Made by a program: the position numbers and the translations under genes. Positions 14,122-17,302 of a stretch of 64,000 bases of DNA are shown here, piece after piece. The stretch comes from Sandaracinaceae bacterium (GTDB taxonomy: Bacteria; Myxococcota_A; Polyangia; Polyangiales; Sandaracinaceae). How positions within the stretch are numbered: the stretch's first letter is position 1; each line of letters opens with the position of its first letter. Location: the NCBI GenBank assembly GCA_019637095.1, contig JAHBWG010000050.1:1-64000 (forward strand). The letters run 5' to 3'. The notes beneath the pieces were generated by a model. That model worked only from the letters and a program-made list of their open reading frames with translations, did no database searches and was not told the origin of the DNA.

Positions 14122-14886
14122 TCAGGCGCCTGCTCCGACGATCACGGCGGCGTCGAGCGCCCGCACCGCGCCGCCGCGCCCGCGGCTGAGGTAGGGGGCG
14201 CGCGCGAGGCGCGTCACGACCAGGCCGGCCGGCTCGAAGAAGCCCTCGACGAGCTCGGCGAGCGACGCCTCGAAGTCCTCGCCGCGGCCGGGGAGCGGCT
14301 CGTCCGGATCGACGGTGCCGCCGCCGCGGTCGACGTGCGGGCGCGCGGGCAGCGGCACGCTCGCGACGAGCACGCCGCCGGGCTCGAGCAGACGCAGCGA
14401 AGCGCAGAGGAGCGAGCGCGGGCGCTCGCAGCGATCGAGCACGTTCGACAGCGCGATCGCGTCGAAGCGACCGAGCGCGGGCGGGACCTCGCGCGCGAGG
14501 TCGACGACGTGGCACGCGAAGCCGAGGCGACGCAGCCGCCTCGCGAGCGCGCGCGAGACCTCGGTCGTGACGATCTCGGAGACGACGGCGCGCGCGTGCA
14601 CCGTGACGTGGCCGGCGCCCGCCCCGACGTCGAGGAGGCGGCGGCGCGCTTCGCCCAGGAGATCGCGCCACGAGGCCTCGCCATAGAGCGCCATCGGGTG
14701 CGTGCCGAGCAGGCCGTCCGCGTCGAAGTCGCTGACCACGCGGCGGAGCGCGCCGTGGAGGGCGGCCCGCACGGCGCCGTGGCCGCGCCGCTCGCGCGCG
14801 AACGCCTCGACGTGAGCATCCTCGGGGAGCGGCCGGACGAGCCGCGCGAGCCGCGCAGGCAAGCGCTCTCGCCGCAGCTCTCTCAC
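14122..14886 (-). CDS. DREV/METTL9-family methyltransferase (putative protein-histidine methyltransferase)
   Basis: 254 residues. The GTG at 14886 is chosen because it overlaps the DUF99 stop codon (GTGA). The SAM site is LLDVGAGAG (84-92). Beyond a generic class I fold it carries the block pattern that, from memory, marks DREV/METTL9: DFDADGLLG (53-61), SNVLDRCERPRSLL (147-160), LEPGGVLVASVPLPARPHV (167-185), then PYLSRG (231-236) and LDAAVIV near the end. Animal METTL9 makes 1-methylhistidine in HxH motifs of zinc-related proteins. It is the last gene of a three-gene minus-strand run that diverges from an SmtB-like sensor and an HxH-rich protein. The family call is strong; histidine specificity and substrate are inference. 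Confidence 0.85.
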   Translation of the reverse strand: MRELRRERLPARLARLVRPLPEDAHVEAFARERRGHGAVRAALHGALRRVVSDFDADGLLGTHPMALYGEASWRDLLGEARRRLLDVGAGAGHVTVHARAVVSEIVTTEVSRALARRLRRLGFACHVVDLAREVPPALGRFDAIALSNVLDRCERPRSLLCASLRLLEPGGVLVASVPLPARPHVDRGGGTVDPDEPLPGRGEDFEASLAELVEGFFEPAGLVVTRLARAPYLSRGRGGAVRALDAAVIVGAGA

Positions 14887-15446
14887 GCGCCGCCGCGGCT
14901 CCGACCGCGCGCGAGCGCCCCCGCGATCAGGTGCGCGAGGCGGATCGGCTCGGGCAAGAGACCTTGCACCCTCGAGTCGCGGAGCAGGCGCGCCGCCGCC
15001 GCGGCGCTCAGGCCCGCGCGCTGGACCCACACGCCCTCGATCGGCTCCATCGGCCCGGCGCGCTCGATCAGCCGCCACTTGCGGGCGCCGCCCGGCACCC
15101 GCGTCGCGAGCGCGCGGCGGATCGCCGCGAGGTCGGGGGCCCTGCGGGTGACGACGAGGACCGGCCGCGCGAGCCGCTCGGCGAGCGCGTGCAGGTCGAT
15201 CACGTTGAACCCCGCGAGCGCGATCCCGTCGAGCAAGACGGCTTGCACATGCTCACGAAACGGCGAGCCCTCGAGCAGCGACGCGACGCGATCCGTCGCG
15301 TTCGCTCCGTCGCGGCGGGCCGCGCCGACGACGACTCCGTCGAGGCGGTGTCGCGTCAGCACGGTGCCCACGATCGGCACGTCGCCGCGGTGCCCCCGCG
15401 CGAACGGCGCGTCGTCGACGCCGAGGAGGTTCGAGAGCGCGCGCAC
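14883..15446 (-). CDS. DUF99 family protein (endonuclease V-like fold)
   Basis: 187 residues with a GTG start directly adjacent to the preceding stop codon. The family pattern is clear: LLGVDDAPF near the N-terminus, VPIVGTVLTRHRLDGVVVG, LLDGIALAGFNVIDL, and RPVLVVTRRAPDLAAIRRAL. DUF99 is found mainly in archaea, with scattered bacteria, and is structurally related to endonuclease V; its activity is not established. It overlaps the methyltransferase gene by 4 bp and abuts the oxidoreductase gene, so the three are almost surely co-transcribed. Confidence 0.88.
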   Translation of the reverse strand: MRALSNLLGVDDAPFARGHRGDVPIVGTVLTRHRLDGVVVGAARRDGANATDRVASLLEGSPFREHVQAVLLDGIALAGFNVIDLHALAERLARPVLVVTRRAPDLAAIRRALATRVPGGARKWRLIERAGPMEPIEGVWVQRAGLSAAAAARLLRDSRVQGLLPEPIRLAHLIAGALARGRSRGGA

Positions 15447-16547
15447 TCAGCCTCGCGGGTGCACCACGACGCCGCCGACCACGCGGCTCTCCCACTTCGC
15501 CTTCAGCGCGTCGAGCACCGAGTCGAACGGAAACGCCGCGCCGACGCGGGGCGTGATCTTGCCCGCCTCCGCCCACGCCATGACGCGGTCGCGACGATCC
15601 GCGCGCATGCGCGGGTCGCGGTGGGCCGAGATCGCGGCCGGGCACCCGCGCACGTCGACGCTCTTCATCAGGATGAGGTTCGTCGGCAGGACGTTGACCT
15701 CGGCGGCCCCGCGGCCTCCCTTGCCCTTCGCGACCGACGGCGTCGCCGCCCAGCCGACGACCAGGAAGCGCGCGCCGAACGCGACGCAGCGCAGGCTCTC
15801 GACGGAGAGCGGCCCGCCGACCGGATCGTAGACGACGTCGACGCCGCGCCCGCCGGTCAGCGCCTTGACGGCGGGGCGCAGCGCCGCGAGGTCGCTCGTG
15901 TCGAGGACGTGGTCGGCGCCCTCCTCGCGGACCGCCTCGAGCTTGTCGGCGGAGCGGCCGGTGGCGATCACGGTCGCGCCGGCGAGCTTCGCGAGGTGCA
16001 CGGCGGCGAGCCCCGTCGTGCCCGACGCGCCGTGCACGAGCACCACGTCGCCCGCGCGCACGTCGCCGCGGTGGAAGAGGCAGTGGTACGCCGTCTCGTA
16101 CGCGCCGAGCAGCACGCTCGCCTGATCGAACGAGAGCGGCGCGGGCTTGGGCAGCACCGCCTCGCGGGGCGCGACCGCGTACGTCGCGAGCCCGCCCCAG
16201 CGCCGATACGCGCCGAGCGAGCGCGGGCCGGTGAGGAGGCCGTCCACGATCACCGCGTCACCGACCTCGACGCCGCGCGCCGCCTCGCCGCGCCACGCGA
16301 TCGTGCCCGCGTACTCCATGCCCGGCGTGTACGGCGGCTCGGGGACGTGCTGGTACTGGCCGCTCGTCATCAAGAGATCGACCCAGCCCACGCCCGCCGA
16401 CTCGACGGCGACGATCACGTCGCCGGGCGCGAGCGAGGCCGGATCGGGCGGCTCCTGCGGCTCGAGCGCGAGGTGGTGCTCGATCGCGTCGAGCGGCGTC
16501 GGTGCGAGCTCGCGCAAGACCGCGCGGCGACCCATCGGGAGCGACAT
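15447..16547 (-). CDS. MDR-family NAD(P)-dependent oxidoreductase, quinone reductase-like
   Basis: 366 residues. It has a GroES-like N-terminal domain (PPYTPGMEYAGTI) and a Rossmann NAD(P) site (LVHGASGTTGLAAVHLAKLAGATVIATGRS). The catalytic-zinc cysteines of alcohol dehydrogenases are missing, so it groups with zinc-independent quinone oxidoreductases. Such enzymes reduce quinones or enones with NADPH; the substrate here is unknown. It is the first gene of the minus-strand run with DUF99 and the METTL9-like gene. Its start is 51 bp from the divergent SmtB-like gene, so the inverted repeat at 16580-16601 could influence both directions. Confidence 0.88.
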   Translation of the reverse strand: MSLPMGRRAVLRELAPTPLDAIEHHLALEPQEPPDPASLAPGDVIVAVESAGVGWVDLLMTSGQYQHVPEPPYTPGMEYAGTIAWRGEAARGVEVGDAVIVDGLLTGPRSLGAYRRWGGLATYAVAPREAVLPKPAPLSFDQASVLLGAYETAYHCLFHRGDVRAGDVVLVHGASGTTGLAAVHLAKLAGATVIATGRSADKLEAVREEGADHVLDTSDLAALRPAVKALTGGRGVDVVYDPVGGPLSVESLRCVAFGARFLVVGWAATPSVAKGKGGRGAAEVNVLPTNLILMKSVDVRGCPAAISAHRDPRMRADRRDRVMAWAEAGKITPRVGAAFPFDSVLDALKAKWESRVVGGVVVHPRG

Positions 16548-16562
16548 GGGCCAGAGCGTAGC

Positions 16563-16590
16563 TTGACTCTGGCAGAACTCAGTTCATGAT
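16563..16590 (+). promoter_or_regulatory. predicted sigma70-type promoter of the SmtB-like gene
   Basis: TTGACT (16563-16568, 5/6 to consensus) and CATGAT (16585-16590, 4/6) are 16 bp apart. A start site about 7 bp further on would be near 16597, only about 2 nt from the ATG at 16599, giving a nearly leaderless mRNA. No Shine-Dalgarno is seen, which agrees. A small dyad, CCAGAG/CTCTGG (16551-16556 and 16567-16572), overlaps the -35 box. Confidence 0.5.
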
Positions 16591-16601
16591 TCGATGAAAT
16601 G
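16580..16601. promoter_or_regulatory. inverted-repeat operator for the SmtB-like repressor
   Basis: The site is CAGTTCAT-N6-ATGAAATG; the arms match at 7 of 8 positions, with a perfect TTCAT/ATGAA core. It overlaps the predicted -10 box and the start codon. SmtB/ArsR operators are imperfect inverted repeats containing TGAA/TTCA with about 6 bp between half sites, so size and composition fit, though the half sites face the other way. Autorepression is the likely role. Confidence 0.55.
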
Positions 16602-16949
16602 ACGGACCGAGGAATCGACTGCGGCCACGACCACGCGCCCCGCGCGGTCGCGCTCTCGGACGACGCCACGCTCGAGCGGGCGGCGGCGATCCTCGGCGCG
16701 ATGGGCGACCCGGCGCGCCTGCGGCTGCTCGAGCGGCTCGCGAAGGGCGGCGAGCACTGCGTGAGCGAGCTCGCCGAGGCGGCGGGCGCGGGGATGTCCA
16801 CCGTGAGCCAGCGGCTGCGCGTGCTGCACGAGCGACACCTCGTCATCCGCCGCCGCGAAGGGAAGCACGTGCACTACGAGCTCGCCGACGATCACGTCGC
16901 CGAGCTGGTCCTGGCGGCGTTGGACCACGCCGCCGAACAGAGAGGATGA
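16599..16949 (+). CDS. ArsR/SmtB-family metal-responsive repressor, zinc-type site
   Basis: 116 residues. A winged helix-turn-helix includes CVSELAEAAGAGMSTVSQRLRVL and REGKHVHYEL. The C-terminal helix has D97-x-H99-x10-H110-x2-E113, the exact spacing of the SmtB/CzrA alpha5 zinc site (D104, H106, H117, E120 in SmtB). C54 sits at the SmtB C61 position, and the N-terminus offers C8, H10 and H12, so an alpha3N-like site is also possible. This makes it a probable zinc-responsive repressor. It overlaps the histidine-rich gene by 4 bp (ATGA) and most likely represses its own operon when metal-free. Confidence 0.93.
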   Translation: MTDRGIDCGHDHAPRAVALSDDATLERAAAILGAMGDPARLRLLERLAKGGEHCVSELAEAAGAGMSTVSQRLRVLHERHLVIRRREGKHVHYELADDHVAELVLAALDHAAEQRG

Positions 16950-17302
16950 GTACGATGAGCCACACCCCCCACGACGGCCCCCACGACCACACGCACGGCC
17001 CCGGCTGCGGGCACCCCGCGATCGAGCACGACGGCCACGTCGACTACTTGCACGACGGGCACCTGCACCACCCGCATGGCGACCACGTCGACGACCACCG
17101 CCTCGCGGTGAGCTCGGACAACCCCGCCGACTGCACGCCGAGCCACGACTGCGGCGCGCACGGCGACGAGCACGCGCACGGTCCCGGCTGCGGGCACCCG
17201 TCCGTCCCGCACGGCGACCACGTCGACTACCTCGTCGATGGCCACCTGCACCACCCGCACGGAGATCACTGCGACGATCACGGCGCGGTCAGCGCCGGGT
17301 GA
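16946..17302 (+). CDS. histidine-rich metal-binding protein with internal duplication
   Basis: 118 residues, 28 of them histidine (24%), with no signal peptide or membrane segment, so probably cytoplasmic. It consists of two copies of a roughly 40-residue unit (about 13-51 and 74-112). Each carries GPGCGHP, then GDHVDYL or DGHVDYL, then DGHLHHPHGDH. HxH motifs include H13-D-H15, H15-T-H17 and H76-A-H78. The gene overlaps the SmtB-like repressor gene, so it is presumably induced by the same metal. A role as zinc buffer, sponge or chaperone is inference. The small central residue in HTH and HAH suits METTL9-type methylation. The start could also be the ATG at 16955. Confidence 0.9.
   Translation: MSTMSHTPHDGPHDHTHGPGCGHPAIEHDGHVDYLHDGHLHHPHGDHVDDHRLAVSSDNPADCTPSHDCGAHGDEHAHGPGCGHPSVPHGDHVDYLVDGHLHHPHGDHCDDHGAVSAG

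Follow-up and report, generated by a model that had tools for sequence, protein, structure and literature searches.

A METTL9/DREV-family methyltransferase from a Sandaracinaceae bacterium and the putative zinc-response operon beside it are probably accidental neighbours

METTL9, a protein-L-histidine N-pros-methyltransferase, has been described as a eukaryotic enzyme (PMC7873184, PMC12269839, PMC13027442), and crystal structures are available for the human protein (PDB 7YF3, 8GZE) and for that of Ostreococcus (8BVI). It disfavours HxH motifs with a bulky middle residue. The C-terminal N-methyltransferase domains of the ovothiol enzymes OvoM, OvsM and OvoA also methylate a histidine ring nitrogen, here on small-molecule substrates. 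Our search of the literature outside subscription papers found nothing relevant on METTL9 in prokaryotes or myxobacteria. The existence of bacterial DREV proteins is nevertheless unlikely to have gone unrecorded, since Pfam's own model detects them.

We analysed a stretch of 64,000 nucleotides from a Sandaracinaceae bacterium (the window), in which an earlier note had joined a METTL9-like gene and a neighbouring zinc-sensor operon into one possible histidine-methylation system. The gene order it described holds. A minus-strand run of oxidoreductase, endonuclease dU and methyltransferase genes, the first two abutting and the last two overlapping by 4 bp, ends with the DREV gene and diverges across 51 bp (16548-16598) from an SmtB-like sensor gene coupled to that of a protein with 24% histidine, which does carry H15-T-H17 and H76-A-H78. 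The features are as follows.

14122-14886, minus strand: METTL9/DREV-family SAM-dependent methyltransferase, 254 aa, GTG start
14883-15446, minus strand: endonuclease dU (PF01949/DUF99), 185.8 bits, 4-bp overlap with the methyltransferase gene
15447-16547, minus strand: quinone-oxidoreductase-like zinc-type dehydrogenase (MDR superfamily), abutting the endonuclease dU gene
16563-16590, plus strand: sigma-70-like promoter ahead of the sensor operon, TTGACT-16-CATGAT, with 0.0 such sites expected in shuffles
16583-16598, no strand assigned: candidate operator TTCATGATTCGATGAA, an inverted repeat (TTCA-N8-TGAA) covering the -10 region
16599-16949, plus strand: ArsR/SmtB zinc-type sensor, alpha5 site DxHx10HxxE, NF033788
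16946-17302, plus strand: histidine-rich protein, 118 aa, 24% His, two similar halves

The product of 14122-14886 is a genuine DREV/METTL9-family methyltransferase of a bacterial branch, as had been proposed. It matches the Pfam DREV model (PF05219) with 85.8 bits against a curated cut-off of 26 (E = 3.6e-24) and is the sole match at E <= 0.001 in its own genome. As a single-sequence query it retrieves the METTL9 proteins of human (E = 1.2e-18) and Ostreococcus (E = 9.3e-16), and a profile built from 14 bacterial relatives, the window protein among them, aligns with METTL9 across the entire length of the latter at E = 1.5e-59. The AlphaFold2 model (pLDDT 92.8) superposes on METTL9 crystal structures with Z 31.6 and 1.9 A over 250 residues, compared to Z 17.4 for the best chain outside METTL9; model residues 1-254 align on METTL9 56-318, the METTL9-type N-terminal helical segment included. 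Typical members of the branch are about as similar to human METTL9 as the algal enzyme is, one relative (G025) and Ostreococcus METTL9 both being 37% identical to it. Strong DREV matches came from 18 genomes in a phylum-wide sample of 284 and from 35 in a class-wide sample of 241, in every case within the order to which the window belongs. A scan of the collection with alignment A3, whose order-specific patterns say little on other phyla (alignment A1 was too diverse for such a scan), returned 13 loci; where the taxon is named it is myxobacterial or, in the wide sense, deltaproteobacterial (Myxococcales, Sandaracinaceae, Polyangiaceae and the like).

Residue roles reported for METTL9 (PMC13027442, section 4) could be transferred to the window protein, in which E174, N210, D213, R214, Y295 and L308 of METTL9 correspond to E109, N148, D151, R152, Y232 and L244. 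The SAM residue E174 and the target-histidine residues N210, D213, Y295 and L308 are identical, and M126 is likewise kept. From this conservation, E109 would probably hold SAM, and D151 would probably hold the far nitrogen of the target imidazole, with the near (pros) nitrogen then attacking the methyl group, making histidine-ring chemistry plausible for this enzyme. The residues that read the HxH peptide are changed, with N118 replaced by D, R123 by T, G124 by H, and both D300 and Y306 by R. R123 and G124 are replaced in all 24 bacterial sequences, whereas D300 and Y306 are retained in many relatives (D300 in G025, for example) and gone from the window protein and its three closest relatives (G002, G005 and G008). 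Mutation of D300 abolishes the activity of human METTL9 (PMC13027442). With its motif-reading residues changed, the window enzyme probably does not take a standard H[ANGST]H peptide as its substrate, and reading of that motif appears doubtful for the bacterial branch as a whole and most of all for this member.

The neighbourhood of the gene is partly conserved. DREV and endonuclease dU genes are adjacent in the window's own genome and in the three closest relatives (four genomes of three genera in all), and in these relatives a block running from DREV and endonuclease dU to an ScfR-type regulator and a superoxide dismutase (SodB) is kept at 61-79% identity. Other genes fill the interval that in the window holds the oxidoreductase, sensor and histidine-rich genes; the oxidoreductase has no counterpart in the DREV neighbourhoods of relatives. 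Endonuclease dU is best known from archaea, and PF01949 was present in 67 of the 241 genomes of the class sample. The slot held by endonuclease dU in the window, immediately upstream of DREV and in the same orientation, is taken in four further family genomes by the gene for a DUF2752 membrane protein (L057:7467-7979, L066:1702-2244, and also G006 and G007). In one genome (G046, L047:3532-4002), the only such case among 23, the gene immediately upstream of DREV encodes a different ArsR-family regulator, one that lacks the alpha5 zinc motif.

The divergent pair has its own conserved organisation. The sensor matches NF033788 (85 bits against a cut-off of 55) with DDHVAELVLAALDHAAE as its alpha5 zinc motif, and its ORF shares a 4-bp translational overlap with that of the histidine-rich protein, which matched no Pfam or NCBIfam family. 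All 23 relatives with a detected sensor have the DxHx10Hx2(E/H) site, and in each of them the sensor and histidine-rich genes share a strand. The region has no promoter-like site besides the TTGACT-16-CATGAT element, and the TTCA-N8-TGAA repeat recurs close to the start of the sensor in 10 of the 23 relatives, two further matches differing in spacing or form. The sensor ATG follows the candidate operator without a gap and comes 8 bases after the end of the -10 box (16583-16601), which suggests a leaderless sensor transcript. We interpret 16599-17302 as a putative self-contained zinc-response operon, in which the SmtB-type repressor would probably bind the repeat over its own promoter and release it at high zinc, allowing the histidine-rich protein, likely a zinc-responsive buffer or store, to be made. 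The histidine-rich family (window 16946-17302, orthologues in L069-L124) is conserved, with halves of the form HGPGCGH...HVDYL.DGHLHHPHGDH.DDHG, and has no Pfam or NCBIfam model. In this class it is coupled to the zinc-type SmtB sensor, and plasmids of Burkholderiales, Vibrio and Pantoea carry it as well; one relative, on a Paraburkholderia plasmid, adjoins a zinc ABC transporter. None of the plasmids searched carried a DREV relative.

The central proposal of the earlier note, that the METTL9-like enzyme methylates HTH and HAH of the neighbouring histidine-rich protein and thereby tunes its zinc binding, draws on the closeness of the genes, the small middle residue of both motifs and the weakened zinc binding of a peptide methylated by METTL9 (PMC7873184). 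Synteny, linkage, order-level co-occurrence, motif counts and active-site residues all speak against such an enzyme-substrate pair. The zinc pair is missing from the conserved DREV block of the three closest relatives, whose genomes contain no histidine-rich homologue; its insertion into, or repeated loss from, an older neighbourhood would be the simplest reading. Both genes occur together in 13 further genomes and are unlinked in all of them. Two of these genomes are near-complete and place the genes about 4 Mb from each other around the circle; in the rest they fall on different contigs, which is weak evidence for any one genome, the majority of relatives being drafts, although the two near-complete genomes agree. 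Enzymes can act on the product of an unlinked gene. Co-occurrence beyond chance, whose absence the earlier note had named in advance as counting against it, was not seen at the order level (7 against 5.3 expected among 56 relatives, p = 0.34). The class-wide sample did show an excess (13 genomes with both genes, our own included, against about 6 expected, p = 0.003), which is confounded by taxonomy because DREV was found in one order only. The histidine-rich protein has H[ANGST]H motifs at chance level (2 observed, shuffle mean 1.98, P(>=2) = 0.61), and such motifs are not commoner in orthologues from genomes with DREV (1.07 per orthologue with, 1.57 without, p = 0.21), while the best-kept HxH of the family is HLH, of the kind METTL9 disfavours. 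In the enzyme itself the equivalents of D300 and Y306 are both R, that of R123 is T and that of G124 is H. We consider methylation of HTH and HAH here very improbable. Both halves of the earlier reading stand, the DREV/METTL9 enzyme on one side and the zinc-type sensor with its histidine-rich partner on the other, and only their union into a joint system is not supported; on balance we favour, with reasonable confidence, two unrelated units that are neighbours by accident.

Two other functions were weighed for the enzyme. Methylation of a small-molecule imidazole in place of a protein, as by OvoM and OvsM, would fit the changed peptide-reading residues, and these enzymes are the nearest characterised histidine-ring structures outside METTL9 (Z 15.8-17.2); the NCBIfam model ovoA_Cterm (TIGR04345) also gives a local match at E = 8.6e-7, its 28.7 bits falling short of the cut-off of 170. 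METTL9 is however far closer (Z 31.6) and shares the N-terminal helical segment, and, in contrast to ovothiol systems, none of the 57 genomes of the order sample, our own among them, has a sulfoxide synthase over the curated cut-off. We regard a small-molecule substrate as unlikely. A role in nucleic-acid repair or modification together with endonuclease dU, which the direct adjacency of the two genes in four genomes of three genera might suggest, is very unlikely: endonuclease dU was not found in five other family members with DREV, four of which have DUF2752 in its slot, the two genes lie on different contigs in seven genomes of the order that have both, and the DNA activity claimed for worm METTL9 was not reproduced (PMC12269839).

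Our view remains that the enzyme would methylate a histidine ring nitrogen in some protein by the METTL9 mechanism under an altered recognition rule, the fold and catalytic residues being those of METTL9. No such substrate lies next door, as HxH occurs in 4 of 89 proteins encoded within two genes of DREV compared to 18 of 170 further away. HxHxH proteins were also sought across the window's own genome, where the corresponding DNA pattern was not enriched over a backward control. Three of the proteins found exceed the neighbouring histidine-rich protein in H[ANGST]H motifs, with 6-18 apiece: a DUF4920 lipoprotein with a HGHGHGHGHGHGH run (an HGH run; L157:1105-1650), a 92-aa lipoprotein with 24% His (L171:1435-1713) and an ArsP-type permease whose long tail is rich in histidine (L130:1138-3015). 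None is a supported substrate; the HGH run is not common to relatives with DREV, and no relative of the 92-aa protein turned up in the sample. More generally, the METTL9 branch of this order may make N-pros-methylhistidine in bacterial proteins by a rule other than HxH, a proposal we put forward tentatively and at somewhat less than even odds. If true, it would amount to a bacterial protein-histidine methylation activity absent from the METTL9 literature searched. A close bacterial METTL9 branch would allow new histidine-methylation substrates to be looked for in simple organisms, and it would also make one ask whether this order and eukaryotes have exchanged the gene, significance to which the claimed zinc link adds nothing.

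Compared to the described systems, the window protein has the whole fold of human and Ostreococcus METTL9, including the N-terminal helical segment, but is bacterial, is approximately 29% identical to the human enzyme and differs from it at METTL9 positions N118, R123, G124, D300 and Y306. With the OvoM, OvsM and OvoA C-terminal domains it has in common the class I fold and the Asn-x-x-Asp-Arg region at much lower similarity, those enzymes being without the METTL9 N-terminal segment. The window sensor resembles the SmtB/CzrA alpha5 zinc sensors in its ArsR/SmtB fold, DxHx10Hx2(E/H) site and inverted repeat over the promoter, but its target, judged by position, would be a histidine-rich protein and not a metallothionein or an efflux pump.
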